Below are positions 804-59,449 of a stretch of 64,000 nt of DNA, piece after piece. The position numbers were made by a program, and so were the translations under genes. Positions within the stretch are counted from its first letter, which is position 1. Every line of letters starts with the position of its first letter. The stretch lies in NCBI RefSeq assembly GCF_000227665.2, contig NZ_CP007030.1, positions 310,001 to 374,000 of the forward strand. The letters run 5' to 3'. Origin of the DNA: Thiomicrospira aerophila AL3. GTDB lineage: Bacteria; Pseudomonadota; Gammaproteobacteria; Thiomicrospirales; Thiomicrospiraceae. The notes under the pieces were generated by a model. The model saw only the letters and a program-made list of their open reading frames with translations. It ran no database searches and had not been told where the DNA came from.

Positions 804-1577
804 ATGAGAAAGGCCATATTATTGCTTGATCTGGGCAATACCCACTTGAATTGGGGATTATGTGATAGTGCCAGTCTGCAGATTTTTGATACAGGCAAGG
901 TCGCTGACCAGGCTTGGTCTGATTTAATATCAGCTACAGGTCAGTTAGCTAATATTCAAGTAAGCATTGAAGAAATCTGGTTGTGTTCTGTTGCTAAGTC
1001 AACAATTAAGGAATCTCTATTATCATGGGTAACCTTAGTTGACCGACCGATTTATCAAGCAAGAACGGGTCAGCGTTTTAATAAGCTTGTTAATAGCTAC
1101 GATAATTATGCCCAACTTGGGATTGATCGTTGGTTGGGGCTTGTGGCCTTAACTACTGATTATGGTTATCCTGCACTCCTTATTGATGCAGGAAGTGCAA
1201 TGACGCTTGATTATGTTGATGCTGGTGCTGTTTACCAGGGTGGGTGGATCGTTCCAGGTATTGGTAAATCAAGACAATGTTTGAGTCAGCAAACTAGCCT
1301 CTTAGTCCCTGATTCCCCTTTACCAAACTCTCTTTGTATCGCTAAAAATACCACTGCGGGTATAACTGCAGGCCTGTTAGCTGCAGCGGTCGGTACCATT
1401 GCACAATTTGAGCGGCAAATAGATAAGCAAACAGAAGTATGCAAGGTGATTACGGGTGGAGAAGGCCCATTACTCTTGAAATATCTTAATAGTGACTGGC
1501 AATACGATCCTCACCTAGTCCTTAAAGGGTTGGCCCTTTATGCACAAGCAAATAAGCTGGTTAGCAGAAATAATTAA
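804..1577 (+). CDS. coaX: Type III pantothenate kinase
   Basis: Phosphorylates pantothenate in the first committed step of coenzyme A synthesis; type III enzymes are insensitive to CoA feedback. The N-terminal DLGNTHLNWG is the ASKHA-fold phosphate-binding loop. LGIDRW and IDAGSAMTLD are the other family signatures. The ATG at 804 is preferred over one 18 bases upstream at 786, because AAGAG lies 7 bases before it and the protein then starts a few residues before the first strand, as is usual. It follows birA by about 30 bases and is probably co-transcribed. coaD, a later step of the same pathway, is at 9.7 kb. Confidence 0.95.
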   Translation: MRKAILLLDLGNTHLNWGLCDSASLQIFDTGKVADQAWSDLISATGQLANIQVSIEEIWLCSVAKSTIKESLLSWVTLVDRPIYQARTGQRFNKLVNSYDNYAQLGIDRWLGLVALTTDYGYPALLIDAGSAMTLDYVDAGAVYQGGWIVPGIGKSRQCLSQQTSLLVPDSPLPNSLCIAKNTTAGITAGLLAAAVGTIAQFERQIDKQTEVCKVITGGEGPLLLKYLNSDWQYDPHLVLKGLALYAQANKLVSRNN

Positions 1578-1605
1578 GATTTCTGTTAATTTTTCTTAAA
1601 ACTTA

Positions 1606-1633
1606 TTGACACTAATTTAAACCTATTTATAAT
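1606..1633 (+). promoter_or_regulatory. Sigma-70 promoter of tRNA-Thr
   Basis: Perfect TTGACA (1606-1611) and TATAAT (1628-1633) boxes are separated by 16 bases. They are followed by a GC-rich discriminator (AGCGCGC) and then the tRNA at 1644. A GC discriminator on a strong promoter is typical of stable-RNA genes under stringent control. It is the clearest promoter in the window. Confidence 0.85.
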
Positions 1634-1643
1634 AGCGCGCAAT

Positions 1644-1719
1644 GCCGACATAGCACAATTGGTAGTGCAACTGATTTGTAATCAGTAGGTTGGGGGTTCG
1701 AGTCCCTCTGTCGGCACCA
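1644..1719 (+). tRNA. tRNA-Thr (anticodon TGT)
   Basis: A complete 76-base cloverleaf. The acceptor stem pairs GCCGACA (1644-1650) with TGTCGGC (1709-1715), followed by A1716 and an encoded CCA. The anticodon stem ACTGA/TCAGT encloses the loop TTTGTAA, giving anticodon TGT at 1677-1679. The T arm carries GGTTCGAGTCC. It stands alone rather than in the usual Thr-Tyr-Gly-tuf cluster, and a T-rich stretch follows. No integrase or attachment repeat is seen beside it. Confidence 0.97.
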
Positions 1720-3701: not shown

Positions 3702-4328
3702 TTAGCAGCGACCAAATAAGCAACGTTGTGCAGGTAAGCGACACTGATTGAGTTGATTTTGATACTTGATACTGCGTTGTTCAACACGTTTGGCTACAGA
3801 CATTAACCAGGGTTTTTGTTCATAAGTTTTACGCCGAAACCCGCCATGTCCTTCATGATAAGCTAAATACAAGTTGTAAGGATCATTGAGCGCAATACCA
3901 TTGCGAGAGTGCGATAGGCTGTTATACCAACCGATAAAATCAAGGGCATCATCAATATTAGTGCGACGCGCGCGAAAGTTGCCCGTTGCTTGTTGGTAAT
4001 CAGACCAAGTGCCATCTAGTGCCTGCGCATAGCCTAGAGCACTAGAGGCTCGTCGTCCTGGAATGACACCTAAATGGTTTTGTCTAGGGGGGCGAGCATT
4101 ATGAACAAATCGAGATTCTTGATGCACAAAAGCTTTTTGAATGGCAATCGATGTACCCCATTTATCTTGCGAGCGTTTTGCCGCGTTGTACCATTGCCGA
4201 TCATGCTTGATCAACTCACAGACATTGTCATGAAGTTCAGGAGGGGGGTTGCGATTGGTCGCACAGCCATTCAAGATCAAGGTGCCAAGCACCAAACCTG
4301 CTAGCCCTAGTTTACTCAAGTAGCTCAA
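3702..4328 (-). CDS. Lipoprotein with lytic transglycosylase-like (SLT) domain
   Basis: Probably a murein-cleaving or murein-binding outer-membrane lipoprotein. A hydrophobic leader ends in the lipobox LNGC. The mature part holds an SLT-like region with HQESRF, where Glu would be catalytic, then ALGYAQALDGTW and LYLAYHEGHGG. The start is uncertain. The TTG at 4328 has GGAGG eight bases upstream and gives an ideal 22-residue lipoprotein signal. An ATG at 4343 and a TTG at 4364 lack a ribosome site. The gene overlaps the end of the preceding minus-strand gene. Substrate and partner are not known from the sequence. Confidence 0.75.
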   Translation of the reverse strand: MSYLSKLGLAGLVLGTLILNGCATNRNPPPELHDNVCELIKHDRQWYNAAKRSQDKWGTSIAIQKAFVHQESRFVHNARPPRQNHLGVIPGRRASSALGYAQALDGTWSDYQQATGNFRARRTNIDDALDFIGWYNSLSHSRNGIALNDPYNLYLAYHEGHGGFRRKTYEQKPWLMSVAKRVEQRSIKYQNQLNQCRLPAQRCLFGRC

Positions 4329-5088
4329 GTGTGTGGCCTCCATAGTAAAAAAATTGATGCGCAATAGGTAAATTATCTTTAAGTATTAACACTTGCCAAT
4401 CACCTATTTTAGGTGGAAAAAAAGCTTCATGCCAGCTATTTTGCTCATACTGATTTTTATCATCAAAAATCCAGATTAAGCTAATGTTATCCTGCCAAAT
4501 CACCGGCCAAATGAATAAAGCTCGGCAGGGCTCATTATCGATTAGGCCGTGCGCATCTAGTAACAAAGCAAACGATAAAACGGATTTATCTACTGAATCC
4601 ATGTGCGAATACGCGAGGTTCGGCAGGCCGGCTTGTAAGTTAAGCAGAATCTCGCGTTCTTGATGGGTTAAGAGCGCAAAGTCATCCAGTTCAGTAGGCA
4701 CAAAAAACTCACTAGCGCGAGTGGTTTGCTGAGCGTTATCCACTTGCGTTGGTTCTGCTGCCGATTCGGCTATGCTCTCATCGTTCGGTGCCATTATGAT
4801 GACGACAAGCAGGCCTGCTAAGATCACCATCAAAAAAAATAGCAGTTGGCGCATTTTAGTCCAGGGCATCATCCCTTGGTAACGGCGTTGTTTGGGTTGT
4901 TGCAGACCAACTTGATAGCCTTGCTCAAAAGCGTGCAGTAAAGCGGGATCATGTCTAATTGATAAGGGTGGTGCAGGTTTGTTTAGCAGGCCTGCTTCAC
5001 TTTGCATCAGCAGGGCGAGGCTAAATCCTTGCTGATAAGCACGTTGCTGGGCAGGCGACCAATATGCCATTGCAGCCGGTTTTGACAC
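4312..5088 (-). CDS. Single-pass membrane protein of unknown function
   Basis: Not recognised. About 80 polar residues precede a transmembrane helix (roughly residues 84-101, LLFFLMVILAGLLVVIIM). A low-complexity acidic/Gln linker and a soluble C-terminal domain of about 140 residues rich in Trp and Phe follow. The topology suggests a cytoplasmic N-terminus with the C-terminal domain in the periplasm. The gene begins one base after ftsY ends and overlaps the following transglycosylase gene, so all three are probably co-transcribed. A role in the envelope is inference from that context only. Two CAGGCCTG palindromes fall inside it. Confidence 0.6.
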   Translation of the reverse strand: MSKPAAMAYWSPAQQRAYQQGFSLALLMQSEAGLLNKPAPPLSIRHDPALLHAFEQGYQVGLQQPKQRRYQGMMPWTKMRQLLFFLMVILAGLLVVIIMAPNDESIAESAAEPTQVDNAQQTTRASEFFVPTELDDFALLTHQEREILLNLQAGLPNLAYSHMDSVDKSVLSFALLLDAHGLIDNEPCRALFIWPVIWQDNISLIWIFDDKNQYEQNSWHEAFFPPKIGDWQVLILKDNLPIAHQFFYYGGHTLELLE

Positions 5089-5089: not shown

Positions 5090-6175
5090 TTATTGACCTG
5101 CAGTTGGGCGATCTAAAAAGGCATCCACAAACGCCTTCGCATTAAAGACTTGCAAGTCAGCAAGGGTTTCACCTACCCCGATAAATTTAACCGGTATCCC
5201 CATTGTTTGAGCTAAGTTAAAAATGACGCCGCCTTTGGCGGTACCATCGAGTTTAGTAATAACCAGGCCTGTTACACCAACGGCTTGATGAAATTCTTTC
5301 GCTTGATTGAGGGCGTTTTGACCAATAGACGCATCCAGTACCAGTAACACATCATGCGGCGCATCGGCATCGCACTTTTGTATGACTCGTTTGACCTTTT
5401 TCAGTTCGTCCATTAGGTTGTTCTGGGTATGCAAGCGCCCCGCCGTATCGGCCAGTAACACATCCATTTTTTTCGCTTTTGCAGAGTGAATCGCATCATA
5501 AATCACCGCCGCAGAGTCAGCACCGGTTTTTTGCGCCATTACTGGGATTTGATTGCGCTCTCCCCAGGTTTGCAGCTGCTCTACTGCGGCAGCCCTAAAG
5601 GTATCGCCAGCGGCTAACATCACTTTATGCTGCTGATTTTGTAAATATTTGGCCAGTTTACCAATTGTAGTGGTTTTGCCAGCACCATTAATGCCGACCA
5701 TTAAAACCACATGAGGTTTGGCATCCGCATGAATCACTAAAGCCTGCTCTACAGGGCTTAAAATCGCTTCAAGTTGCTCGGCTAAAGCATCAAATAGAGC
5801 TTGCGGATCTTTTAGCACTTGCCGTGACACCTGGTCGGTCAGAGCATCAATAATCTGGGTTGTAGCTTCAAAGCCCACATCGGCTTGTAATAACAGGGTT
5901 TCTAGCTCTTCTAATAGCTCATCATCAATCTGTTTTTTGCCTAAAAATAATCGTGATAAACCTGAGGTAAAGGCCTCGCGCGACTTGGTTAATTGCGCTT
6001 TAAGGCGAGCAAATAAGCCTGTTTTTGTGGGTGTTTCCGCTACCTTCTCAGTTTCCTTCAGGTTTGTCTGTGCTTCAGTGCGGTCTGTTGATGCAGGCTG
6101 ATCCAACATGGGATTATTGACATTATCAAGCTTGGGCTCAGTTACAATAGGTTTCTTTTTAAAAAAATCAAACAT
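5090..6175 (-). CDS. ftsY: Signal recognition particle receptor FtsY
   Basis: Membrane-associated GTPase that docks SRP-ribosome complexes at the Sec translocon. A charged N-terminal A domain (to about residue 55) precedes the NG domain. The P-loop GINGAGKTTT is at 161-170, AGDTFRAAAVEQ at 189-200, DTAGR at 243-247 and TKLDGTAKGG at 308-317. At 361 residues it is shorter than the E. coli protein because the acidic domain is short, as in many gammaproteobacteria. It is divergent from the M16 peptidase operon. Confidence 0.96.
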   Translation of the reverse strand: MFDFFKKKPIVTEPKLDNVNNPMLDQPASTDRTEAQTNLKETEKVAETPTKTGLFARLKAQLTKSREAFTSGLSRLFLGKKQIDDELLEELETLLLQADVGFEATTQIIDALTDQVSRQVLKDPQALFDALAEQLEAILSPVEQALVIHADAKPHVVLMVGINGAGKTTTIGKLAKYLQNQQHKVMLAAGDTFRAAAVEQLQTWGERNQIPVMAQKTGADSAAVIYDAIHSAKAKKMDVLLADTAGRLHTQNNLMDELKKVKRVIQKCDADAPHDVLLVLDASIGQNALNQAKEFHQAVGVTGLVITKLDGTAKGGVIFNLAQTMGIPVKFIGVGETLADLQVFNAKAFVDAFLDRPTAGQ

Positions 6176-6358
6176 ACAGGTCTCGGTAATTTAGGAAAAA
6201 TGTGACGCACTCGACGGCGCCCCTTGTAAAAGATATATCGGCCTATTATAAATAACTTATTGTTTTTTGCACTGTAAATGCCTGGCGGCACAGATCGTCT
6301 TGCAATAATGGGCGCAACACGACTACACATAATTTAGCAAGCATGAAAGGAGAGCAGT

Positions 6359-7738
6359 ATGCCAAGCTTAAAAGGATGGGGGCTGAGTATTTTATTGGCA
6401 CTGAGCGGTCATGCATTCGCCACTGAATCATCGACGCTATTTGAAACGCAGCTCGATAATGGTTTGCAAGTGATTGTAAAATCGGATCATCGTTCGCCCA
6501 TTGTGGTGCACCAGGTCTGGTATCGCGTCGGCGCCAACTATGAACCTACCCACTTAACTGGTATCTCTCATATGCTTGAACACATGATGTTTAAAGGTAC
6601 TGAAAATATGGCTCCCGGTGAGTTTTCGCGCGAAGTTTCGCGTCTAGGGGGGCGAGACAATGCCTTTACCTCGGCCAACTATACTGCCTATTTTCAAATC
6701 GTTGGTAGAGAACACTTGGGTCGGGTGATGGAAATGGAAGCCGATCGTATGGCCAATCTTAAGCTCACTGAAGAAGAGTTTCAGCCAGAGCGTAATGTGG
6801 TGATTCAAGAACGACTTTGGGCCATTGATGATCGCCCGAGTGCGCGTTTATTTGAGCAATTCAAAGCCACTGCGTTTATGAGTAGTCCAGAACGTAATCC
6901 TATTATCGGCTGGATGGATGATATTAAAAACTACACGCTTGAGGATTTGCAGGCCTGGTACGACCGTTGGTATTCACCTAGTAATGCCACATTGGTGGTG
7001 GTCGGGGATATCACGCCTGACGAAGTGTTAACTTATGCCAAGCAAACCTATGGTCAGATTCTTGCGCGTGACATTGCGCCACCCCGTTCCGCTGTTGAAA
7101 TTCCGCAACAAGGGCAACGCCGGATTATTCTCAAAGATGCCGTACCTGTCCCCAGTTTGTTAATTGGTTTTCATGCGCCAAGTCTGGTAACGGCCGAAGA
7201 TCCTGCTGATGTGTATGCCTTAGCGGTACTAAGTAGTATTTTGGGTGGCAACGACAGTTCACTATTGACGCAAGCCTTAGTCCGCGATCAGCAACTTGCC
7301 AGTTCTGCGGGGAGTTTTTATCGATTTTTGGGGCGGTTAGGATCACAGTTTGCGCTCAGTGCGCAGCCTAATCCTGGCGTGAGTGTGGCTCAGCTGGAGG
7401 AGGCTTTGTTAGCGCAGATTACCCGTTTGCAAAATGAGCCGGTCACCCAAGCAGAACTAAATCGTGTGCTGGCGCAAGCTGAAGCGGCACACGTGTTTAG
7501 TCAAGATTCGATTCAATCCCAAGCCAATATGTTAGGTATGCTGGTCAGCGTTGGATTGCCAGCCAGTACGTTTGATGACTATGTGGATAACTTACGCCAG
7601 GTCACACCGGAACAGATTCAGCAGGTTGCGAATAGATACTTGCAACTGGATCAATCTACCGTCGCGATTTTAGAACCCAGTGGTGAAACGAATCGTCGTC
7701 CAGCTGCCAGACCTGACTTTGGGGGGAGATCACACTAA
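6359..7738 (+). CDS. M16 family zinc metallopeptidase (catalytic)
   Basis: Exported insulinase-type peptidase. A signal peptide ends about residue 21 (GHAFA). The inverted zinc motif HMLEH is at residues 71-75 and the third ligand is probably Glu151 in IQERLW. The C-terminal half is the second, non-catalytic M16 repeat. The ribosome site AAAGGAGAG is close to the ATG. It overlaps by one base the start of a second M16 gene that lacks the zinc motif, the common periplasmic active/inactive heterodimer arrangement. Substrate unknown. Confidence 0.9.
   Translation: MPSLKGWGLSILLALSGHAFATESSTLFETQLDNGLQVIVKSDHRSPIVVHQVWYRVGANYEPTHLTGISHMLEHMMFKGTENMAPGEFSREVSRLGGRDNAFTSANYTAYFQIVGREHLGRVMEMEADRMANLKLTEEEFQPERNVVIQERLWAIDDRPSARLFEQFKATAFMSSPERNPIIGWMDDIKNYTLEDLQAWYDRWYSPSNATLVVVGDITPDEVLTYAKQTYGQILARDIAPPRSAVEIPQQGQRRIILKDAVPVPSLLIGFHAPSLVTAEDPADVYALAVLSSILGGNDSSLLTQALVRDQQLASSAGSFYRFLGRLGSQFALSAQPNPGVSVAQLEEALLAQITRLQNEPVTQAELNRVLAQAEAAHVFSQDSIQSQANMLGMLVSVGLPASTFDDYVDNLRQVTPEQIQQVANRYLQLDQSTVAILEPSGETNRRPAARPDFGGRSH

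Positions 7739-9064: not shown

Positions 9065-9078
<14 letters not shown>
7738..9078 (+). CDS. M16 family peptidase-like subunit (non-catalytic partner)
   Basis: A secreted M16-fold protein with a signal peptide ending near residue 30 (WPVFA). Where HxxEH would be, the sequence reads GLANFTGN, so zinc cannot be bound and the protein should be inactive alone. The C-terminal substrate-binding motif EVREKRGLVYSVFS is retained. In known M16B heterodimers the inactive subunit supplies this R/Y pair to the catalytic subunit, which fits translational coupling with the upstream gene. It overlaps rsmD by 14 bases. Confidence 0.88.
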
Positions 9079-10972
<1,894 letters not shown>

Positions 10973-11159: not shown

Positions 11160-12574
<1,415 letters not shown>

Positions 12575-12740: not shown

Positions 12741-12754
12741 ATTTGGAAGCGTCT

Positions 12755-13522
12755 GTGTTAGAACAAGTTTTGTTATTTTTTATTTCGCTGGTAGCGAATT
12801 TATTATCCGCGCTAGCCGGTGGCGGCGCAGGCTTGCTACAGCTGCCGGCTTTGTTGTTTCTAGGGTTGCCGTTTGGGGTGGCCTTAGCAACGCATAAGGT
12901 CGCCAGTGTGTTTTTAGGCTTGGGGGCAACCGCGCGACATTGGCGCAGTTCAACGCTTGATTGGCGATTTGCGGCATTTATTCTAGCTTGTGGGTTACCC
13001 GGTGTCGTGCTTGGCGCTAGTTTTATTTTACAGGTAGACGAACGTTGGGCGACCTTGGCTCTGGGGTTGCTAACTCTCAGTTTAGGCATTTATTCCTGGC
13101 TAAAGCCTGAACTAGGACAAATTTCACAGCCGCAAAATCGCCAAGTAGCAGGCCTGCTAATTGGTGGTATTGTGATTTTAATGATTGGCGTGCTAAATGG
13201 GTCACTCACCTCCGGTACGGGATTATTTGTCACACTGTGGTTAGTGCGTTGGTTTGGTCTTGATTATAAAACGGCGGTTGCCTATACCCTGGTGTTAGTT
13301 GGCATTTTTTGGAACGGCATGGGCGCTTTAACCTTGGGTATTTTAGGTGACATTATGTGGAGCTGGCTGCCCGCGTTAATTTTAGGGTCGCTAATTGGCG
13401 GTTATTTAGGCGCGCATTTGTCGATAGTCAAAGGCAATAAGCTGGTTAAACGTGCATTTGAAGTGATTACCATTTTAGTGGGCATGGCGCTCATCTACCA
13501 GGCCTGGTCACTTGGGAGTTAA
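12755..13522 (+). CDS. TauE/SafE family sulfite/anion exporter-like permease
   Basis: A polytopic membrane protein of the TauE/SafE (DUF81) family, with two homologous halves and about eight hydrophobic segments. The start NLLSALAGGGAGLLQLPALL and the repeat LIGGIVILMIGVLNGSLTSGTG are typical of this fold. Family members export sulfite, sulfoacetate or similar anions; the substrate here is not determined. There is no ATG: GTG at 12755 has GGAAG five bases upstream and is preferred over a TTG at 12743. It begins right after the argB terminator and so needs its own promoter. Confidence 0.85.
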   Translation: MLEQVLLFFISLVANLLSALAGGGAGLLQLPALLFLGLPFGVALATHKVASVFLGLGATARHWRSSTLDWRFAAFILACGLPGVVLGASFILQVDERWATLALGLLTLSLGIYSWLKPELGQISQPQNRQVAGLLIGGIVILMIGVLNGSLTSGTGLFVTLWLVRWFGLDYKTAVAYTLVLVGIFWNGMGALTLGILGDIMWSWLPALILGSLIGGYLGAHLSIVKGNKLVKRAFEVITILVGMALIYQAWSLGS

Positions 13523-38167: not shown

Positions 38168-38281
38168 GACACCCTCCCAAACTAAACCAAAGGTTCAATG
38201 CTCCCAGTGTCCCCAGTGGGAGCGCCTACCAATCTGCCTGTCGCGCAACACACTAAGCCAATCCGGCTATTATTCGACACC

Positions 38282-38315: not shown

Positions 38316-38334
38316 TAAAAAACCTCAGCTTCGC

Positions 38335-39687: not shown

Positions 39688-39729
39688 ACCCAATCCCTCC
39701 AAGGTTCTTTTTAAGCTCGGCTTCGAATT

Positions 39730-39762
39730 GGTCTGCATTCCCACGTGGAACGTGGGAACGAG
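39730..39762. repeat. REP-like palindrome, copy 2 (upstream of hsdS)
   Basis: GGTCTGCATTCCCACG then CGTGGGAACGAG, the same orientation and 5' part as the copy at 38282 but with a shorter centre. It lies 43 bases before the hsdS start, between it and the AlbA_2 gene. Confidence 0.75.
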
Positions 39763-39828
39763 AAAATGGTTCGATGAACTTGTCCGGTTTTAACCAGGCC
39801 TGGTGATTTTGATGGATTTGTTTTTTAG

Positions 39829-42894: not shown

Positions 42895-43590
42895 TTATGA
42901 CTTAACGCGTGCGCCAAACAAGTCGGTGCCAATGCGTATTTGGGTGGCGCCTTCTAGAATTGCGGCCTCTAAATCGTTCGACATGCCCATTGAAAGGGTA
43001 TCAATGGGGTGTTGCGGCAGGGTCGTTTGCAGTTGTTCAAATAGCACGCGCATCTGTGCAAAGGCTTGGCGTTGCGCGGCCATGTCATCGGTCGCAGCGG
43101 GAATCGCCATTAAACCGCGAATGACCAGGCCTGGTAATAGCGCCATCTCTTGTGCTGCGGCGATCAGCTCTGCCGGTAAAAACCCAGACTTGCTTTCCTC
43201 TTGGCTAATATTAACCTGAAGCAGAATATTGAGCGGCGCGCGGTCAGTTGGGCGTTGTGCGCTTAGGCGTTGGGCAATTTTAAGACGATCGACACTTTCT
43301 ACCCAGTCAAAATGCTCGGCAATCGGTTTGGTTTTGTTGGATTGAATCGGTCCAATAAAATGCCAGGTCGCATCTGGGTGGACGGCTATTTTTGGCAAAG
43401 CATCTTGCAGATAGTTTTCGCCAAAGGCGCGTTGGCCGAGGGCGATAAATGCGGCGACGGCAGCGGCCGGTTGCGTTTTGCTAACCGCCAAGAGGCTCAC
43501 GTCATTGGGGTCGCGGTTGGCTTGTAAGCAGGCCTGGTTAATTCGGTGTTTTACTTGTGCGAAGTTGTGGGCGTAGTCCTGCGGTGTCAT
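42895..43590 (-). CDS. yggS: YggS family pyridoxal phosphate homeostasis protein
   Basis: Binds PLP on a single alanine-racemase-like barrel and balances B6 and amino-acid pools; it has no known enzymatic activity. LLAVSKTQPAAAVAAFIALG carries the PLP lysine, with FGENYLQDALPKI, WHFIGPIQSNK and LSMGMSNDLEAAI as further signatures. The length of 231 residues is normal. It ends 101 bases upstream of the hsdM start on the same strand. Confidence 0.95.
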   Translation of the reverse strand: MTPQDYAHNFAQVKHRINQACLQANRDPNDVSLLAVSKTQPAAAVAAFIALGQRAFGENYLQDALPKIAVHPDATWHFIGPIQSNKTKPIAEHFDWVESVDRLKIAQRLSAQRPTDRAPLNILLQVNISQEESKSGFLPAELIAAAQEMALLPGLVIRGLMAIPAATDDMAAQRQAFAQMRVLFEQLQTTLPQHPIDTLSMGMSNDLEAAILEGATQIRIGTDLFGARVKS

Positions 43591-47485: not shown

Positions 47486-47510
47486 AGCCCGACTTGTGCG
47501 GGCTTTTTTA
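47486..47510 (+). terminator. Rho-independent terminator after the chemoreceptor gene
   Basis: AGCCCG (47486-47491) pairs with CGGGCT (47499-47504) across a seven-base loop, followed by six T. It overlaps the last codons of the convergent minus-strand gene. Confidence 0.88.
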
Positions 47511-48272
47511 TTGAGTGGCCTGGGCGGGCAGTCGGTGAGTCAAATAATGTCTAATAAATAGATGGTCAGTTTGGGCTAAGCAGGCCTGCTGATCAGTTTC
47601 TTTGAGTTGTCCTAATAGATACCAAGCCGGCTGGTTTTCGGGCGAGTGATTAGATAAATGATGAGGCAGGTGGTTGAGTAAGTCAGCCAGTAGGTCAGCC
47701 AATTCACCCTCATAACAGCCCGGAAGCCCATCTGGGTGCGCCACGCGATTGACCACGCCCCAATCCTCTAATATGGGTACGGCACCCAACGCTGACCCGG
47801 CTAAATCCAATATAAACCGCGCCGGTTTCAGTTGCACCGGTAGCAAGGGGTCATGTTTGAGTAGCGCAATCATCGGTGCTACCTCTAGGCCGGCTTGTTT
47901 AGCCTGTTGGCGTTCTTTTGCAGCAGCTAATACCCAAGCAAGGCTGCTGCGGTCCGCTAACCAAATTTGTGCTTGTTGTGGCCAGTATGTTACGCCATCG
48001 GGGCGAATGAAGTCTTGGTGGAGCGTGACTTGTCGCTGGTCACCGGCTTGCCACGAGTCTAACCAGGCCTGGTCACTGAGCCATTGGGTTTTAACTCGAC
48101 CATCCGCGGTAGCTTGGTTGTGCCAGGCTTTAGCGGTGATTTGGTTAAGTGGGTCTGAATGGTTAAAATGGCCGACGGTACCAAATTTAATCTCATGTGC
48201 CTGTTCTGTTTGCCACAACCAGGCCTGGTTGGGCTGGGCGCTACAACTCAATAGGGTAAGTAGGCTATTCAT
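47508..48272 (-). CDS. Uncharacterised protein downstream of pyrC'
   Basis: Not recognised. 254 residues, rich in Gln, Leu, Ala and Trp, without clear membrane segments. A short, weakly hydrophobic start MNSLLTLLSC could be a poor signal but is not convincing. It lies seven bases after pyrC' and so is probably the last gene of the pyrimidine operon. Three CAGGCCTG palindromes encode QAW or QAC tripeptides in it, so part of its composition reflects the repeat. Confidence 0.55.
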   Translation of the reverse strand: MNSLLTLLSCSAQPNQAWLWQTEQAHEIKFGTVGHFNHSDPLNQITAKAWHNQATADGRVKTQWLSDQAWLDSWQAGDQRQVTLHQDFIRPDGVTYWPQQAQIWLADRSSLAWVLAAAKERQQAKQAGLEVAPMIALLKHDPLLPVQLKPARFILDLAGSALGAVPILEDWGVVNRVAHPDGLPGCYEGELADLLADLLNHLPHHLSNHSPENQPAWYLLGQLKETDQQACLAQTDHLFIRHYLTHRLPAQATQ

Positions 48273-48279: not shown

Positions 48280-49575
48280 TTATACGGCGCGGTTTTGATA
48301 CACCGTGCGACCCTGAAAGAGCGTGGTCACCACCGCTGATTCAAAACGCCAACCGGCAAAAGGCGAGTTTTTACCCGCTGAAATCAGTTGCGCGGGTTCA
48401 AATGCCCAAAAGGTTTCTGGATCGACCAGGCATAGATCGGCGCTGTAGCCACTGGTGATACGTCCAGCCATCACATTAATAATATTCGCTGGTTGCCAGG
48501 TGAGGGCACTGATCGCTCGCTCAAGGGGCAGCTGGCCGTTTTGCACCAGTTTAAGGGTGAGGGGCAAGAGCGTTTCTAGGGCGCTGATACCGGGTGTGCT
48601 TTCGCCAAAGGGTAAGAGTTTATGGTCCTTGTTAAGCGGGGTATGGTCACTGACAATGGCATCAATCGTGCCATCGGCGACCCCCGCGATAAGCGCCAGT
48701 TGATCGTCTTGACTACGCAGCGGCGGACTGACATGAAATAGGCTATTAAATTCTAATAAGTCCATTTCAGTTAGGTGCAGCTGATGGGCCGCCACATCGC
48801 AGGTGACCGGCAAGCCTTGCGCTTTGGCCTGGGCAATCATCTGCACGGATTCGGCGCAGGAGAGTTGCGAAAAATGGGCGCGCACGCCACTTTCAGCGAC
48901 CAAAATTAAATCACGTGCCAGTGCGATGGTTTCGGCTGAACGCGGAATCGGGTTAAGGCCAAGGCGGGTGCTGACCGCACCGGAATGAGCGACGCCGTGA
49001 TTTTTAAGCTGTTGATTCTCGCAGCGCAGCATCACCAGTAAATCTTGTGACGCCGCATAATCAAGGGCATTTTTGAGTACCAGTGGGTTTTGAATGGGTT
49101 GATTGGCTTGGCTGAGTGCCACGCATCCGCCCGCTTTTAGCGAATTCATGTTACTGAGTTGTTCGCCAGCGAGTCCTTTGGTTAGCGCACCCAGTGGCAA
49201 AACAAACGCCGTGGCGGCTTGGCGCGCCCGACGTTGAATAAGTTCGGTGACGGCTTGGGTGTCGGTGACCGGCTGGGTGTCAGGTGGGCAGCACAGGGTG
49301 GTAATGCCACCGGCGACCGCCGCTTTGGTTTCACTGGCAATATTACCGGCGAGATGTTTGCCGGGTTCGCCTAAGCGTGCTTGCAAATCCACCAGGCCTG
49401 GTAATACCCACAAGCCTTGCGCGTCCAGAATGTCAATTTCAGCGCGTGTTTCAAAGCCGGCGGGTACGGGGTCGCCGACGGCGACAATATGCCCGTGGCT
49501 GATATAGATATTGGTTATTTGATCGAGTTGTTGTGAAGGATCAATAACGCGGCCCTGCTTAATAATCATTTTCAT
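48280..49575 (-). CDS. pyrC': Dihydroorotase-like non-catalytic subunit of aspartate carbamoyltransferase
   Basis: Amidohydrolase-fold partner needed for assembly of the large class A carbamoyltransferase, as in Pseudomonas. The metal motif is lost: [10 protein letters not shown] has Gln65 and Arg67 where HxH should be. Other regions follow the dihydroorotase pattern ([24 protein letters not shown]). The length of 431 residues is normal. Its ATG overlaps the pyrB stop by four bases. The active dihydroorotase is at 32.5 kb. Confidence 0.93.
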
Positions 49576-52257: not shown

Positions 52258-53316
52258 TTATGGGGTCGTCTTGACTAACCAGGGCGAAAGAGCAGGGCTA
52301 ACAATCAGCTGATTTTGCTGGTCGATGAGTAGATAGTGGCTCAGCTCAAACTCAGCGACTAAGGCTTGCCACCCATTAGGGCCGGCAATGAGTAGAGCTG
52401 TTGCGAGGGTGTCAGCCATGACGGGGTCTGGATGCCAAACGCTAACCGAGGCAAAGCTATCAGCCGGTGCGGCGGTGTTGGGGTTAAGCAGGTGACTGAA
52501 GCGCTGCCCTTGCCAATCGAAGTATCGTTGATAGGTGCCGGAGGTGAAGAGCGCCATATTGGCGGGTAGGATGACTTCGGCGATTGCGCGCTCTGGTTGT
52601 TGCGGGTCGCGTAGTTTGATGGTCCAGTTTGTATGGGGATTTTTATCACGTGTATCAAGCGAAAAACTGCCTAAGTCGCCGCCTAGATTAAGCAGGGCGC
52701 GAGGTATTTGATGGTCTTGTAAAATTGACCAGGCCTGCTGCACCGCTAAACCTTTGAGATTGCCGCCAAAATCCAAGCGCACCTCTGTGTTGCGGCTAGT
52801 GAGCTGGCCTTGCTCAAATGCGAGGTCGGCAATGGAAGGGCGCTGGTCTAACCAGGCCTGGCGCAGGTGCAGGTCGGGCGGTGGGCCTTGCCAGTCGCGC
52901 TGATGAAATCCCCATAGGGCAATTAGGCTGCCAATGCCGGGGTCAAAAAGATGGTGGGTGCGCGCGCTTAATTGCTGGGTTTGCTGGATGAAGGCTTGGA
53001 TATCAGCAGGGATTTCAATGGCCTGATCTTGCGCAATGGCTTGATTAATTTGATACACCCAGCCATGAGGTTCCCAAGCATGCCAGGCCTGGTGCATGGC
53101 CAAAAAATGCTGTTCGATAGCATGAATTGCTTTTTGGGCTTGCGGTGAGGGCGTGTCATAAATATGTACGCTCACTTCAGTGCCAAACACATAGAAGGTT
53201 TGCACAACCGGCGGCGGGGTCGTTTGACAGCCACTGAGAAGCAGCAGGCCTGCTAACACTAGGCCTAAGATTCCGCGTGTAATTAGAGAAGTGGTTAATC
53301 GCGTGCTTGGCTGCAT
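52258..53316 (-). CDS. apbE: FAD:protein FMN transferase (lipoprotein)
   Basis: Attaches FMN covalently to a threonine in periplasmic flavoproteins such as RnfG, NqrC or NosR-type subunits. The lipobox LLSGC puts lipid on Cys30. VRLDFGGNLKGLAVQQAW and ALLNLGGDLGSF are the FAD-binding parts, and HLLNPNTAAPADSFASVSVW the metal site. Four CAGGCCTG copies lie in it. It follows gshB after four bases. No flavinylation target gene is seen nearby. Confidence 0.94.
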   Translation of the reverse strand: MQPSTRLTTSLITRGILGLVLAGLLLLSGCQTTPPPVVQTFYVFGTEVSVHIYDTPSPQAQKAIHAIEQHFLAMHQAWHAWEPHGWVYQINQAIAQDQAIEIPADIQAFIQQTQQLSARTHHLFDPGIGSLIALWGFHQRDWQGPPPDLHLRQAWLDQRPSIADLAFEQGQLTSRNTEVRLDFGGNLKGLAVQQAWSILQDHQIPRALLNLGGDLGSFSLDTRDKNPHTNWTIKLRDPQQPERAIAEVILPANMALFTSGTYQRYFDWQGQRFSHLLNPNTAAPADSFASVSVWHPDPVMADTLATALLIAGPNGWQALVAEFELSHYLLIDQQNQLIVSPALSPWLVKTTP

Positions 53317-54304: not shown

Positions 54305-54542
54305 CGTGCCATCCCAAGCGTCGGCTGAAAGAGCTTTATTATAGGAGATTTAGCGGGCCATTTTATGTCGTTTTGTTTGTGCTGTTTTTTTGTTCTAACA
54401 TGGTGCGTTTTGTTTCATAATTTTTTTATAAGCTGTGTGATTTTTCAGTACTTTGTATCTAATTCTATGTTTTTAAATATTAATTAAAAAATTGGTTTTT
54501 TATGTGCTTATAATTGATAAATATAATAAACATGAGGATGTA
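54305..54542. promoter_or_regulatory. AT-rich divergent intergenic region
   Basis: A 238-base gap between the divergent gshB and ATP-grasp genes, strongly AT-rich from about 54360 with long T runs and TTAATTAAAAAATT near 54480. Both genes must be promoted from here. Several -10-like boxes (for example TATAAG) exist but none pairs with a convincing -35, so no promoter is assigned. Confidence 0.4.
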
Positions 54543-55994
54543 ATGATGCTATCGGCTTATAACCCCGCCTTTTATGATGAGTCTATGTTATCCGATACCC
54601 AGCCGCGTGCCGGTTCACAAGACTTGGTCAATAATTTTCGTGCGTTAGATTCGGATCAATTGCAAGGCTTGCAAGCTTTAGCAGATGCAACGATTGCCAA
54701 AATGGGCGTGTCTTTTACGGTTTATAGTGATGAAGGCAATATCGATCGGGCTTGGCCGTTTGATATTTGGCCACGCGTTATTGAGGCCAGTGAATGGCAA
54801 TCGGTAGCAGCAGGCCTGCAACAACGCTTACGCGCACTGAATTGTTTTATTGATGATGTTTATAACGAGCAAAAAATTTTCAAGGCCGGTGTGGTGCCGG
54901 CTGATATTGTGCTGAGTTCGCGAAATTTTCGTCCTGAGTGTGTCGGGATGCGTCCAAAACATGGTGCTTGGTCCAATATTTGTGGCAGTGATTTGGTGCG
55001 CGATGCACAGGGGCAATTTTATGTGTTGGAAGACAATCTGCGCGTGCCATCAGGCGTATCCTATATGTTAGAAAATCGCGCGGTCATGAAGCAGGTGCTC
55101 CCTGAGTTGTTTGAGCATAGCATGATTGCGCCAGTCGGGGATTACCCTAATAAATTATTATCGATGCTCAATTCGCTTAATCCCAATGACTCAGTACTGG
55201 CGGAGGTGGTGGTGTTAACACCGGGCATTTTTAATTCGGCCTATTATGAACACGCCTTCTTAGCCCATGAAATGGGGGCTGAATTGGTGGAGGGCAGCGA
55301 CCTGGTCGTCGGTGATGATGATTATGTTTATATGCGCAATATCGAGGGCTTAAAGCGTGTTGATGTTATTTATCGTCGTATTGATGATGAGTTTTTAGAC
55401 CCTGAGGTATTTCGGCCGGACTCGACCCTGGGTGTGCCGGGCCTAATGCGTGCTTGGCGTGCCGGCAAGGTGGGCATTGCTAATGCACCAGGCTGTGGCG
55501 TGGCGGATGATAAGGTGGTTTATGCCTATGTGCCAGCGATGATTGAGTTTTATCTGAATGAGCAACCTTTAGTGCCGAATGTGCCCACTTATCTGTGTCG
55601 CAACGAAGAAGATCAAGCCTATGTGTTGGCGAACATTGAGCAGTTAGTGGTGAAGCCCGCCAATGAATCCGGTGGTTACGGCATGTTGGTTGGGCCGCAC
55701 GCCAGCGCCGAACAATGTGATGCGTTTCGTGAGTTGATTAAACAGAATCCACGCAATTATATTGCACAGCCTACTTTACAGTTGTCGGTGGTGCCTACCT
55801 TAACCACGAAGGGTATTGCCCAGCGCCATGTTGATTTAAGGCCGTTTATATTGCAGGGCGCAGATACCTATGTGACGCCGGGCGGCTTAACCCGTGTGGC
55901 CTTGGTTGAAGGCTCGTTGGTGGTGAATTCGTCACAGGGTGGTGGCAGTAAAGATACGTGGATTGTAGATTTGGAGGTGGATGATGTTATCTAG
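54543..55994 (+). CDS. Circularly permuted type 2 ATP-grasp protein
   Basis: Predicted peptide-bond-forming or amide ligase of 483 residues. FRPECVGMRPKHGAWSNICGSDLVRD, YVLEDNLRVPSGVSYMLENR, PGCGVADDKVVYAYVPAMI, VVKPANESGGYGM and VVNSSQGGGSKDTW are hallmarks of the permuted family. ATG at 54543 or 54546 follows GAGG. It overlaps the alpha-E gene by 14 bases; the two are nearly always paired. Comparative genomics has predicted a peptide synthesis or tagging role, without biochemical proof. Confidence 0.9.
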   Translation: MMLSAYNPAFYDESMLSDTQPRAGSQDLVNNFRALDSDQLQGLQALADATIAKMGVSFTVYSDEGNIDRAWPFDIWPRVIEASEWQSVAAGLQQRLRALNCFIDDVYNEQKIFKAGVVPADIVLSSRNFRPECVGMRPKHGAWSNICGSDLVRDAQGQFYVLEDNLRVPSGVSYMLENRAVMKQVLPELFEHSMIAPVGDYPNKLLSMLNSLNPNDSVLAEVVVLTPGIFNSAYYEHAFLAHEMGAELVEGSDLVVGDDDYVYMRNIEGLKRVDVIYRRIDDEFLDPEVFRPDSTLGVPGLMRAWRAGKVGIANAPGCGVADDKVVYAYVPAMIEFYLNEQPLVPNVPTYLCRNEEDQAYVLANIEQLVVKPANESGGYGMLVGPHASAEQCDAFRELIKQNPRNYIAQPTLQLSVVPTLTTKGIAQRHVDLRPFILQGADTYVTPGGLTRVALVEGSLVVNSSQGGGSKDTWIVDLEVDDVI

Positions 55995-56928
55995 AGTTGC
56001 AGAGCGGGTATATTGGGTTGCGCGCTATATTGAGCGCGTGGAAAACAGCGCCCGGATGATTTTGGTGCATTCCAATTTGATGTATGACTTGCCCAAAAAA
56101 ATTGATATTAGCTGGTATCGTTTGATTGAGTTGGTGAGTGCTGAGGCTTTGTTTGATGAGCTTTACGATGCGAAAACTGAGAAAAACGTGATGGCGATGT
56201 TAATCAGTGATACGCGTAACCCCTCGTCATTGGTGTCATCACTGCGGCATGCCCGTGAAAATATTCGCACCACGCGTGATATTTTGCCAAAAGAAACCTG
56301 GAATATGATTAATCAGTTACATTTGATGCTGGCATCGCGCGAAAGTGATTTGAGTTCGCGAGCTAAACGCAATGATCTAATGGAAGAGGTGATTCGTGCC
56401 TGTCAAGCCATGACCGGGATGTTCTCGGGCACCTTGAGCCAAAATGAAACCTTTTCATTTTTGATGTTGGGGCGCAATTTAGAGCGCGCAGATATGACGT
56501 CGCGTTTGCTGGATGAAGGTGGCTTCTTTTTGGGTCAGCAAAAACATCTTGAGCAGGTGCAGGCCTATGAAAATGTACTGTGGGCGAATGTATTGCGTTC
56601 AGTTAGTGGCTATTTGATGTATCGCCAGCATGTGCAAACGCAAATTAATGGTGAAGATGTGGTGCGGTTTTTGTTGAATGATCGCAAATTTCCGCGCTCG
56701 GTGACCCAGTGTTTGCAGACTATAGAACAGGTCATACAGCAGTTACCTGATGGGGAACTGGTAAAGCAGCAGGTGGCCTCGCTAAGGGTCTACTTGCAAG
56801 AATGGCGTAATTTTGAAGCCGGCTCTGAGGAGCTGCATGGTTATCTTGATCAGTTGCAAAAACATCTTATGTCGCTTAATAATGCGATTTACCAGGCCTG
56901 GTTTGTCCACAAGTTACAAGCCGCCTAG
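55981..56928 (+). CDS. Alpha-E domain protein
   Basis: All-helical protein of 315 residues, partner of the permuted ATP-grasp protein. LSRVAERVYWVARYIERVENSARMI at the start, RENIRTTRDILPKETWN and FLMLGRNLERADMTSRLLD are typical of the family. Catalytic residues are unknown. Coupled by overlap to the upstream gene; a zinc peptidase gene follows after 45 bases. Confidence 0.9.
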   Translation: MMLSRVAERVYWVARYIERVENSARMILVHSNLMYDLPKKIDISWYRLIELVSAEALFDELYDAKTEKNVMAMLISDTRNPSSLVSSLRHARENIRTTRDILPKETWNMINQLHLMLASRESDLSSRAKRNDLMEEVIRACQAMTGMFSGTLSQNETFSFLMLGRNLERADMTSRLLDEGGFFLGQQKHLEQVQAYENVLWANVLRSVSGYLMYRQHVQTQINGEDVVRFLLNDRKFPRSVTQCLQTIEQVIQQLPDGELVKQQVASLRVYLQEWRNFEAGSEELHGYLDQLQKHLMSLNNAIYQAWFVHKLQAA

Positions 56929-56973
56929 GCGTAAAGGTGTGGATAATCGAGCGTCAAAAGAAAAAGGATAGGC

Positions 56974-57999
56974 ATGCAACGATTTTATTGTAATTGTGGT
57001 CAGGAGGTCTATTTTGCCGATACCCATTGTGTGGCGTGCGGCAAAGAGTTGGGGTTTGACCCAAGTAAGCGTCATTTATATTGTGGGCGTCGCGACGGCC
57101 GTGTCTTTATTGCCGAGCTTCCAAATGGGGCGGAAAAACGCTTTAAGGTCTGTGATAATCATCATGAGCCTGTGCGTTGTAATTGGTTGTTGGCGCTTGA
57201 TGACCCGCATCATCAATGTATTTCGTGTCGTACCACCCATATTATTCCAGATCAAAACCAACCCAAAAACCCGTTACGCTGGCGGCGATTAGAAGAAGCC
57301 AAGCGGCGTTTATTTGATACCCTGATTTCGTTGGGCTTAGATACCCGTGGTGCTCCCGATATTATAAATGGCCTTCGCTTTAATTTTTTGGAAGACCAGC
57401 GCACCAACCCGAATGTTGATTTAGAGTTTGTGCTAACCGGTCATAGTCACGGTTTGATTACCCTCAATGCGGCCGAGGCCGATGAAGGGTTTTTACATGC
57501 GATGAAAGAGCAGATGAATGAGCCTTATCGTAGTTTGCTGGGTCATTTTCGTCATGAAGTCGGCCATTACTATTGGGAGCGCCTGCTAAAATCCGAAAGT
57601 TTAGTGCAGTTTCGCCGGGTCTTTGGTGATGAGCGGTTTGATTATGGTCAAGCGTTGCGCAGTTATTACCAATATGGTCCGCAGCGTAACTGGCAGGTCA
57701 GTTTTATAAGTGCCTATGCCAGTTCCCATCCCTTTGAAGATTGGGCGGAAACCTGGGCGCATTATTTACATATTACCGATACGCTGGAAACCGCGCGCAT
57801 GTATGGCTTAACGGACTATGTGCAGGCGCGTCATGATTTTGAACTTTGGGTAAAGGAATGGCTCAAGGTTGTCAAGGTGATGAATGCGCTGAATCGCAGT
57901 ATGGGCTTAGCCGATCCCTATCCGTTTGTGCTAAGCCCGATTGTGATGAGTAAATTGCGGTTTATTGATGATTTAATCGACAGTCAGGCGCGTATTTAA
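56974..57999 (+). CDS. Putative zinc-binding metallopeptidase (Mx family)
   Basis: 341 residues. The N-terminus is a zinc ribbon with CNCGQ, CVAC, CGRR, CNWLLA and CISC cysteine pairs. The central GHFRHEVGHYYWERLL is a metallopeptidase HExxH-type helix (HEVGH), and WAETWAHYLHITDTLETA follows as the third-ligand region. This fits the putative zinc-binding metallopeptidase family found beside ATP-grasp/alpha-E genes. AAAAAGGATAG precedes the ATG. It could process whatever peptide the upstream pair makes; this is inference. Confidence 0.85.
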   Translation: MQRFYCNCGQEVYFADTHCVACGKELGFDPSKRHLYCGRRDGRVFIAELPNGAEKRFKVCDNHHEPVRCNWLLALDDPHHQCISCRTTHIIPDQNQPKNPLRWRRLEEAKRRLFDTLISLGLDTRGAPDIINGLRFNFLEDQRTNPNVDLEFVLTGHSHGLITLNAAEADEGFLHAMKEQMNEPYRSLLGHFRHEVGHYYWERLLKSESLVQFRRVFGDERFDYGQALRSYYQYGPQRNWQVSFISAYASSHPFEDWAETWAHYLHITDTLETARMYGLTDYVQARHDFELWVKEWLKVVKVMNALNRSMGLADPYPFVLSPIVMSKLRFIDDLIDSQARI

Positions 58000-58015
58000 T
58001 AGCTTTGCTGTACTT

Positions 58016-59449
58016 CTATATTTGCCAGTTTTGGCAGAGGTCGCTGGGTAAATAGCTATATTCACCACGAGTCTGTGCTAATTGATCAGCAGTGGTGGCG
58101 TGTTGTAGCACACCGAGCTGTGCTGCAAAACCGAGCTCTAGTCCTTGCGCAACCAGGCCTGCTATTAAACCCGTTAACACATCGCCCATACCGCCTTTTG
58201 CCATGCCACCATTACCGTAGCGGCAGACTATCATGTCTTGGCCATCATAAATAAGTGTCCCCGTGCCTTTTAATACAATCACGCCGCCATAGCGTTTATA
58301 CAGGGCTTTAACGGCGGCAATCCGGTCCTGCTGAACTTGGGCGACGGATTGTTTAAGCAATCGTGCCGCTTCTTTCGGGTGTGGCGTTAAAATCCAACGG
58401 TGATAGTGGCTAGGGCGGTGGGCTAAACAATTGAGCGCATCGGCATCTATAATGAGCGGTTTGTTGGCTTGGCAGGCCTGCTCAAATAAACGCCACGCCC
58501 AGTCGCTTTGGCCGAGTCCTGGTCCAATGGCAATGGTTGTTGCTTGTGCTAATTGTTGAGCAAGTGCTGTGTCGTTGCTGACCATGAGCTCGGGCTGCAT
58601 TTGGGTTAAGGCGATTTGATGTTCCGCGCGGCTGATGACTTTAACTAATCCCGCTCCCGCGCGCAAGCAAGCCTGGCTTGCCAATGCAATCGCGCCCATC
58701 ATGCCAAAGTCGCCACCGATTAATAACGCCGTACCGTAGCGTCTTTTGTGGGATGAATGTTTGCGTTTAGGCGGGCGGATGTCAGCGATATCGGGCGCAT
58801 GCGCTTCTGCTGCAAAGGTATAAAGTAACTTGGGATCGAGATTAAGATCGCAAAGATGAATTTGCCCACACTTATCTCGCCCATCGAGCTGATAATAGCC
58901 TAGTTTATGGCAGATAAAGGCGGCAGTATGGCTGGCGTTGATCGTATCGGTGTGTGCCAGACCGGTTGCACAATCCAATCCCGATGGACAATCTAAGGCT
59001 AAGACTGGTTTTTCCGCTAGATTAACCGCTTGAGTAATCAGGTTCCAGGGCTCGCCTAATGGTCGATTAAGGCCAATACCAAATAGCGCATCAATTACTA
59101 AATCAGCGTCTAATAGGGATTGGGCTGAAAAGCCGGTGACCGGAATGCCTAGTTCGTTAATTTGTTGTGCAGCGTGTTGGGCTAGGCGTGATTTGGGTGG
59201 AGTGATTTGGCAGACGGTAACTTGTTTGCCGGCTTGTTTGGCATATTGGGCAACAAGATAGCCGTCGCCGCCATTTTTACCTGGCCCGACCAAAATGTAG
59301 CAGTTTTTTGCCTGTGGCCATAGACGTTCAGCTAATAACCAGGCCTGCTTAGCGGCACGATTCATCAGCTCCCAACCATCGTCACCGAGTTGTTTTTGGG
59401 CGAGCTGGTCAATAGCCTGGGTTTGATGTGGGGTGAATAATGGCAACAT
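58016..59449 (-). CDS. nnr: Bifunctional NAD(P)H-hydrate epimerase/dehydratase
   Basis: Repairs hydrated NAD(P)H. The N-terminal YjeF_N epimerase has VGPGKNGGDGYLVAQYAKQAG and DALFGIGLNRPLGEP. The C-terminal ADP/ATP-dependent dehydratase, ribokinase-like, has IGPGLGQ, LTPHPKEAARLL and GNGGMAKGGMGDVLTGLIAGL. The ATG at 59449 has GAGG six bases upstream; a TTG at 59461 is less likely. At about 477 residues it is full length. It lies opposite the end of the Mx peptidase gene. Confidence 0.95.
   Translation of the reverse strand: MLPLFTPHQTQAIDQLAQKQLGDDGWELMNRAAKQAWLLAERLWPQAKNCYILVGPGKNGGDGYLVAQYAKQAGKQVTVCQITPPKSRLAQHAAQQINELGIPVTGFSAQSLLDADLVIDALFGIGLNRPLGEPWNLITQAVNLAEKPVLALDCPSGLDCATGLAHTDTINASHTAAFICHKLGYYQLDGRDKCGQIHLCDLNLDPKLLYTFAAEAHAPDIADIRPPKRKHSSHKRRYGTALLIGGDFGMMGAIALASQACLRAGAGLVKVISRAEHQIALTQMQPELMVSNDTALAQQLAQATTIAIGPGLGQSDWAWRLFEQACQANKPLIIDADALNCLAHRPSHYHRWILTPHPKEAARLLKQSVAQVQQDRIAAVKALYKRYGGVIVLKGTGTLIYDGQDMIVCRYGNGGMAKGGMGDVLTGLIAGLVAQGLELGFAAQLGVLQHATTADQLAQTRGEYSYLPSDLCQNWQI

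Follow-up and report, generated by a model that had tools for sequence, protein, structure and literature searches.

Why should one eight-base palindrome occur 41 times in 64 kb of a bacterial chromosome? The stretch in question (the window) is positions 310001–374000 of the single-contig genome of Thiomicrospira aerophila AL3 (2,158,359 bases; G000), and the word is CAGGCCTG, found from position 1369 to 59347. Thiomicrospira is a sulfur oxidiser whose GTDB family is Thiomicrospiraceae; the NCBI taxonomy places the genus under Thiotrichales, Piscirickettsiaceae, gammaproteobacteria. Judged by FtsY, the closest named relative of the strain is Thiomicrospira sp. ALE5 (87% identity). Our analysis makes it somewhat likelier than its opposite that this bacterial family has a partly palindromic self-recognition sequence of the DNA-uptake type, of which CAGGCCTG would be the Thiomicrospira dialect. 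The comparison covered a second species (G001), the nine-genome Thiomicrospira group (g1) and a family set of 62 genomes (the order holds the same 62); detailed counts in G000 come from 464 kb of sampled sequence that includes the window and holds 251 CAGGCCTG sites.

Over-representation and consensus of the word

One hundred dinucleotide shuffles of the window gave a mean of 0.95 copies and a maximum of 6, and an order-2 Markov model predicted 1.31. No other 8-mer of the window is as over-represented; the runner-up palindrome has nine copies. The 12-mer ASCAGGCCTGST, a 12-base extension of CAGGCCTG, encloses 30 of the 41 copies (expectation 0). Over the whole genome we counted 1128 copies, about one per two thousand letters, against a single occurrence of a reversed-pattern control. 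Codon usage is ruled out as the cause by synonymous-codon shuffles: open reading frames (ORFs) of at least 100 codons in the sample contain 216 CAGGCCTG vs 21.6 (sd 4.3, maximum 33) in 100 within-gene shuffles, and 128 copies of the 12-mer vs 2.3.

These figures bear out the initial annotation, which had described a dense palindrome resembling HIP1 (highly iterated palindrome 1) of cyanobacteria, with a bias reaching to 12 bases and more behind it than a favoured codon pair; a genome-wide count near expectation, which it had named as the contrary outcome, was not what we found. Copies fall in the frames QAW/QAC, AGL and PGL, as it had stated, plus one TGL, and three of the 41 are in no ORF of 80 or more codons. 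The A-S/S-T flanks hold beyond the window, since the symmetrised logo of the 251 sites reads (T)nA[C/G]CAGGCCTG[C/G]Tn(A), with A at 0.81 at position -2 and S at 0.95 at -1; the consensus of the Thiomicrospira word is tnASCAGGCCTGSTna. What did not stand is the octamer as the unit: the palindrome is real, but represents one dialect of a longer signal whose flanks vary by clade and which includes an A-tract in many relatives. Of the proposed checks on spacing and strand, the first gave nearly random intervals in G000, save a few long gaps, and the second is moot because the site is its own complement. The share of sites within ORFs is close to proportional (216 of 251, 221 expected).

Clade dialects in the family

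Counts of CAGGCCTG divide the family, with 236–1173 copies in 32 of the 62 genomes and 0–74 in the other 30. All nine Thiomicrospira genomes are rich (840–1128), and the highest count among 365 gammaproteobacterial genomes outside the family was 338, in 4.1 Mb. On a tree of 40 genomes, CAGGCCTG-rich ones occur throughout groups g1, g3, g6 and g7. FtsZ and three more proteins, which not every genome has, were used to build this tree, with G025 as root; a number of inner branches have low support, and groups g2 and g4, both motif-poor, were left out. Departures among the rich clades are G015/G016/G021/G022, G031, G038 and the clade of G059, G035, G049, G051, G060, G037 and G039.

Several of the departing genomes have words of their own. 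G035 contains 1217 copies of CCGGCCGG, which number 0–159 in other genomes, and its logo from 25 sites is ACCGGCCGGT. G031 groups with three rich genomes, with good support. In 100 kb it has 46 CAGGCCGG, 17 AACAGGCCGGGT and one CAGGCCTG, and over the whole genome 74 CAGGCCTG. The word of G015 is AAAATCTGCCAGGCTGGG: CCAGGCTGGG occurs 30 times in 220 kb and CCAGGTTGGG never, whereas the sister lineage G016 has CCAGGTTGGG 33 times and CCAGGCTGGG once, the element there reading ...GGTTGGG. Both orthologous copies seen at a second locus in G015, G016 and G021 show this switch, with T in G016 and G021 where G015 has C. An A-tract stands at -9 to -6 of CAGG in G015 and G016 and more loosely in G031. 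Among genomes with CAGGCCTG, nine clade groups have ten or more sites; in seven of them the frequency of A at -8 to -6 is 1.5–2.6 times that of the background (raw ratios, no significance test), and in the second Thiomicrospira group it is 1.25 times. The -1 flank also varies by clade, being C/G in the species group of the window, C in most, and A/G in G032, G055 and G056. CAGGCCTG is a clade-specific dialect of a larger signal. No word was found in G059 (60 kb) or G012 (40 kb), nor in 20 kb each of G022, G025, G037 and G049, where so short a sample makes the negative weak.

The words of G015/G016 and G031 might instead be unrelated to CAGGCCTG, for example terminator stems or a small dispersed repeat, in which case only the palindromes need explaining. 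Most copies in G015 and G016 do lie outside ORFs (21/30 and 23/33), some form inverted pairs at distances of up to 80 bases (4/30 copies in G015, 14/33 in G016, of which 12 lie outside ORFs, and 0/28 in G031), and the descent of one word from another is something that we infer. Nevertheless, 9/30 and 10/33 copies in these two genomes, and 21/28 in G031, are inside ORFs; the host genomes sit among motif-rich clades while being poor in CAGGCCTG; and the words share CAGG and have the A-tract at a like distance. We regard a separate origin of these words as improbable.

Some k-mer counts are affected by local repeats. In G060 (stretch L161) an array of about 100 short repeats (TTCTTAGC...) swamps them. 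Local 8-mer repeats, each in one of two stretches, were seen in L153 (G016; CCGCGG-rich), L170 (G013; TATCGATA with CTACCTAG) and L176 (G029; CCCGCGGG), and these look like arrays, not genome-wide words.

Conservation between species

G000 and G001 could be aligned over 190 kb at 80% identity, and 84/121 and 84/108 of their sites are identical in the other species, against an 8-mer background identity of 0.21. Twelve of 13 control words gave 0–0.20; the thirteenth, GCCTGGCA, gave 0.52 and can overlap real sites. Flank positions -1 and -2 are likewise conserved. Beyond them, the flanks of sites are only 77.0% identical (285 stretches) vs 82.2% away from sites (442 stretches; P 1e-24), or vs 81.3% (344 stretches; P 7e-18) when the ribosomal block described below is left out; both P values treat stretches as independent.

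At the second locus, pairs of motif-rich genomes (comparisons that share genomes and are not independent) kept 20/21 sites exactly at 82–90% identity, 20/25 at 78–82%, 88/143 at 74–78%, 4/48 at 71–74%, 2/93 at 68–71% and 0/3 below 68%; the 8-mer background over the same bins was 0.44, 0.29, 0.15, 0.11, 0.08 and 0.07. Between motif-rich and motif-poor genomes 2/26 sites were exact, and 16/49 were conserved in a set that spans genera but includes within-genus pairs. Sites are kept over short distances and turned over at larger ones.

Within the octamer, none of 145 site positions in G000/G001 showed a gap, all differences being substitutions, which counters insertion by a mobile element; more distant and less certain alignments had gaps at 4/49 and 2/26 sites. 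Consistent substitution would also be compatible with a mutation or repair bias that creates and keeps the word on its own, as is the finding that no single difference is commoner than G>A (C>T) (9/19 and 10/16). The other single differences are of several kinds, however, transversions included, and amino acids have been changed to fit (see below). Biased repair, one suggestion of the initial annotation, also fits poorly with asymmetric 18-base dialects that stand one fixed base apart between sister lineages, and we know of no mutational specificity that would generate asymmetric words of this length, A-tract and fixed C/T difference included. To bias alone we give hardly any credence.

Effect on encoded proteins

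The tripeptide QAW occurs 80 times in the G000 sample vs 10.3 expected from composition (7.8-fold), and 70 of the 80 are encoded by the motif; for QAC the figures are 34 vs 6.6, with 27 motif-coded. QAW is raised 7.2-fold in G001, 5.2-fold in six motif-rich genomes of g6 and 3.2-fold in three of g3, compared with 1.3 and 1.0 in motif-poor stretches of g6 and g3, where the counts are small (5 and 1). In G035, with its CCGGCCGG word, PAG (11 vs 2.0) and RPV (7 vs 1.2) are raised in place of QAW. Amino acids seem to have been altered to fit the motif, which seems to override amino acid choice.

Some long stretches have few sites. One desert in G000 (148.7–181.0 kb; 32 kb) has one site, and one in G001 (113.2–147.2 kb; 34 kb) has none; to judge by eye from their first residues, the ORFs in both read as rpoBC and ribosomal protein operons. 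This block has one QA[WC] in 10,079 residues in G000, where about 8 are predicted from the sample rate (116 in 141,730). Another site-poor region, G001:C1:339808-377428 (stretches L117–L119), is a single open frame of 37.6 kb (12,540 codons) with two sites; its GC content is 0.55–0.59 vs 0.44–0.48 for most other site-poor gaps, and it is a giant gene of adhesin-like type, probably foreign or repetitive.

A proposed DNA-uptake-type sequence

A protein reader and a genome-wide homogenising process seem to be needed, because the word is clade-specific, swapped between sister lineages, conserved in permissive stretches and able to override amino acids. We suggest the following model. The transformation machinery would include, at the cell surface, a DNA receptor with a preference for tagged fragments; DNA of kin, once taken up, would recombine in, so that perfect copies of the tag replace worn ones; such drive, with or without selection for recognition, could spread and conserve the tag wherever the protein tolerates it; and when receptor specificity shifts the copies would follow, giving rise to clade dialects. 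Several properties of uptake sequences are present: hundreds to thousands of copies of a 9–12 base word, clade dialects and, in G000/G001, a word conserved above its flanks with the flanks permissive. Of the competence machinery, ComEC is encoded in nearly all motif-rich genomes (figures below). At 236–1173 copies the word is within the range of the DNA uptake sequence (DUS) and the uptake signal sequence (USS).

Papers on the Neisseriaceae DUS (receptor ComP) report 97% vs 85% identity, flanks more divergent than average and 2Nes about 4 (PMC2397512), and eight dialects (PMC3630211). The formula of the former, applied to exact vs one-base-off sites, gives 2Nes = 4.7–4.8 here. Our word and the DUS are alike in copy number, clade dialects, conservation above flanks, permissive location and, to a degree that varies among genomes, inverted pairs; they differ in sequence and family, in that CAGGCCTG and CCGGCCGG are palindromes lying (in the own genome) mostly within ORFs, and in that receptor and uptake preference are putative here. 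PMC12616744 describes uptake sequences as known in two families only, with inverted pairs, and with AT-rich tracts in the USS of Pasteurellaceae, whose predicted receptor is ComN/PpdA. With that USS our word shares dialects and an AT-rich tract that keeps a fixed distance from the core (in G015, G016, G031 and many palindromic relatives); it differs in having the A-tract upstream of the core, with none in the own species group, and in an unrelated core that is palindromic in most clades.

Distortion of the proteome, as seen here, is a further property of USS. An even chance, in our estimate, attaches to the wider proposal that the Thiomicrospira family is a third one with a genome-wide uptake tag, independent of Neisseriaceae and Pasteurellaceae, whose ancestral palindrome had its symmetry broken at least twice (in G031 and in the G015/G016/G021 clade) into one-sided A-tract dialects.

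Several observations weigh against an uptake sequence. Site position is hardly kept far off, the 2/93 at 68–71% identity being under the 8-mer background of 0.08, and the number of one-base variants exceeds background only slightly (166 vs 148 in G000, 162 vs 126 in G001). The intergenic excess is mild in the own genome (30 sites vs 21 expected, with ORFs down to 80 codons), and close pairs of sites are not in excess in G000. The species group of the window has no raised A-tract, and when orientation was modelled by expectation-maximisation in G000/G001 no one-sided A-tract emerged, so that masking of such a tract by the palindrome was rejected. (The orientation model for G000 had a likelihood above all 20 null sets, -16357 vs a mean of -16390, sd 4.7, with no clear motif; the other four sets were below or at the null maxima.) No tag was found in 60 kb each of G038, G039 and G051, which are motif-poor and have ComEC. 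ComEC is encoded in 31 of the 32 motif-rich genomes (the exception is G044, with a completeness of 82%), but also in 25 of the 30 motif-poor ones, and so was discarded as a discriminating gene; the genomes at least 90% complete that lack it (G027, G045, G059) are all motif-poor and too few to weigh. A receptor candidate, GspH/FimT (PF12019), matched in 3 of 62 genomes, all motif-poor, and was rejected as the receptor since no motif-rich genome has it; this search was limited to PF12019 and did not extend genome-wide to other pilins or type IV pilus genes. Transformation in these genera is unreported in the titles and abstract openings of the matches listed.

Finally, CAGGCCTG and CCGGCCGG are palindromic, unlike DUS and USS; the words of G015, G016 and G031 are not. 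A palindrome would suit a dimeric binder. If these one-sided words are part of one system with the palindromes, we argue, the reader does not need symmetry. Either direction would serve for reading a palindromic tag, and this may itself be favoured.

Three observations concern pilin and competence genes. Four adjacent ORFs in G013 (stretch L171, about 5300–7250) have prepilin motifs of the GFTLIE type and probably form a pseudopilin operon of type II secretion. Clusters of a similar kind contain the three PF12019 matches (L206–L208). In G031, which has a one-sided dialect, the ComEC frame (G031:C1:88273-89076) has 594 codons vs 854–867 in G032, G055 and G056 and is possibly truncated.

A binder in the cytoplasm is the alternative that we take most seriously, although we consider it unlikely: a chromosome-organising protein (nucleoid-associated, condensin-loading or repair-guiding) whose sites are selected for density, protein and sites co-evolving into dialects. 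The palindrome with its graded 12–16 base consensus suits a dimeric protein, and the nearly proportional placement in ORFs and the conservation of sites within the genus fit as well. The asymmetric dialects of G015, G016 and G031 are ill-suited to a simple homodimer, however, and density falls to about a quarter in G015/G016. Selection for density also sits badly with stretches of 32–38 kb that have 0–2 sites (the rpo/ribosomal block with one in G000 and none in G001, the giant frame of G001 with two), and with positions hardly kept at 68–71% identity.

Methylases and highly iterated palindromes

The initial annotation had offered chromosome organisation, segregation, uptake or methylation as functions. 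Uptake is the reading that we now favour; methylation fared worse. C5 methylases (PF00145) are found in 24 of the 62 genomes, PF01555 in 24 and PF02086 in 10, but PF00145 is in none of the nine Thiomicrospira genomes, and PF01555 and PF02086 are patchy, so the search for a methylase of the site that it had proposed gave no support. Ten of the 32 motif-rich genomes, two of them in Thiomicrospira, lack a match to all three families (G006, G008, G014, G030, G032, G034, G055, G057, G058 and G061), a count that includes some drafts, in which genes may be missing, and leaves types I and IIG aside. A methylase for the site in the palindrome, as expected of a methylase-linked HIP, is thus missing from these ten genomes within the three families.

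In the HIP-type explanation, modelled on PMC4390886, an orphan methylase marks the palindrome and methyl-directed repair or marking favours it. HIP1 (GCGATCGC) and the alternate HIPs of cyanobacteria are likewise octamer palindromes found about once per 1–2 kb, grossly over-represented genome-wide, as is CAGGCCTG (1128 vs 1), and a relative (G035) has another palindrome. The variant CAGACCTG (C5>T) is in excess, 2.0-fold in G000 and 2.9-fold in G001, as decay of 5-methylcytosine would produce, although ordinary C-to-T mutation explains this equally. Variants at the outer base are about 1.4 times expectation (42 vs 29.2 in G000, 28 vs 20.6 in G001), as reported for HIP1; those at the central base number 36 vs 27.6 and 49 vs 25.1, and the other two positions are near expectation. 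The gaps in methylase occurrence, the asymmetric dialects and the occurrence in Gammaproteobacteria set our word apart from HIP1, and we judge a HIP-type origin very improbable.

A 2018 study of HIP1 reportedly dealt with selection and periodicity. CAGGCCTG as a whole word did not occur in the literature searched. Among the matches listed, titles and abstract openings contain no report of it, and a term search of the main text of the 2019 Hydrogenovibrio genome paper (PMC6501319) did not find 'competence', 'DNA uptake' or 'pili'.

What is understood of the origin and dialect change of uptake sequences rests on two cases only. If the uptake reading is true, a third family, in which related sulfur bacteria have forms that are palindromic, half-broken or one-sided, would offer a test of receptor-site co-change, of drive vs benefit and of species isolation by dialect, and sister lineages one base apart at practically every copy would be a natural series for change in a self-recognition code. 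Should the reader be something other than an uptake receptor, a new explanation is still needed for a word that makes QAW almost eight times as frequent in proteins and that changes across copies from one sister lineage to the other; the long-standing puzzle of the purpose of HIP1 may be touched by it as well.

Sites in the window

The 41 sites are listed below. All sites are self-complementary and have no strand, ORF strand is in brackets, and the peptide is that of the reading frame at the site; '12-mer' is ASCAGGCCTGST.

1369–1376, CAGGCCTG, ORF 786–1577 (+), AGL
4808–4819, AGCAGGCCTGCT site, ORF 4312–5088 (-), AGL
4985–4996, AGCAGGCCTGCT site, ORF 4312–5088 (-), AGL
5264–5271, CAGGCCTG, ftsY-like ORF 5090–6175 (-), TGL
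6950–6957, CAGGCCTG, ORF 6359–7738 (+), QAW
9375–9382, CAGGCCTG, ORF 9065–9685 (+), AGL
9875–9886, 12-mer, ORF 9709–10188 (+), QAC
11645–11656, 12-mer, between ORFs
12337–12348, 12-mer, ORF 11660–12574 (+), PGL
13147–13158, 12-mer, ORF 12743–13522 (+), AGL
13497–13508, 12-mer, ORF 12743–13522 (+), QAW
16234–16245, 12-mer, ORF 15422–16522 (+), AGL; first of four within 245 bases
16329–16340, 12-mer, ORF 15422–16522 (+), QAW
16422–16433, 12-mer, ORF 15422–16522 (+), QAW
16467–16478, 12-mer, ORF 15422–16522 (+), QAW
21632–21639, CAGGCCTG, ORF 21532–22008 (+), AGL
23333–23344, 12-mer, P-type ATPase ORF 22005–24716 (-), QAW
25046–25057, 12-mer, ORF 24720–25214 (-), QAC
27343–27354, 12-mer, ORF 27009–27734 (+), QAC
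28359–28366, CAGGCCTG, ORF 27750–29549 (-), PGL
30292–30303, 12-mer, ORF 29951–31150 (+), PGL
34642–34653, 12-mer, hsdR ORF 33951–37073 (-), AGL
37858–37869, 12-mer, between ORFs
39793–39804, 12-mer, between ORFs
41207–41214, CAGGCCTG, ORF 41192–42793 (-), AGL
41403–41414, 12-mer, ORF 41192–42793 (-), PGL
43124–43135, 12-mer, ORF 42895–43590 (-), PGL
43527–43538, 12-mer, ORF 42895–43590 (-), QAC
47579–47590, 12-mer, ORF 47508–48272 (-), QAC
48062–48073, 12-mer, ORF 47508–48272 (-), QAW
48218–48229, 12-mer, ORF 47508–48272 (-), QAW
49391–49402, 12-mer, ORF 48280–49575 (-), PGL
52728–52739, 12-mer, ORF 52258–53316 (-), QAW
52853–52860, CAGGCCTG, ORF 52258–53316 (-), QAW
53084–53091, CAGGCCTG, ORF 52258–53316 (-), QAW
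53243–53254, 12-mer, ORF 52258–53316 (-), AGL
54811–54818, CAGGCCTG, ORF 54492–55994 (+), AGL
56891–56902, 12-mer, ORF 55981–56928 (+), QAW
58152–58163, 12-mer, ORF 58016–59461 (-), AGL
58473–58480, CAGGCCTG, ORF 58016–59461 (-), QAC
59338–59349, 12-mer, ORF 58016–59461 (-), QAW

Type I restriction genes occupy 33951–39804 of the window (hsdR 33951–37073, hsdS 38335–39744), with one site within hsdR and one adjoining hsdS; because of these two sites the module, which is possibly mobile, can be said to carry the tag. At a few intergenic places in the G000 sample, two sites with outward-facing flanks are followed by T and resemble, by sequence alone, a terminator hairpin.

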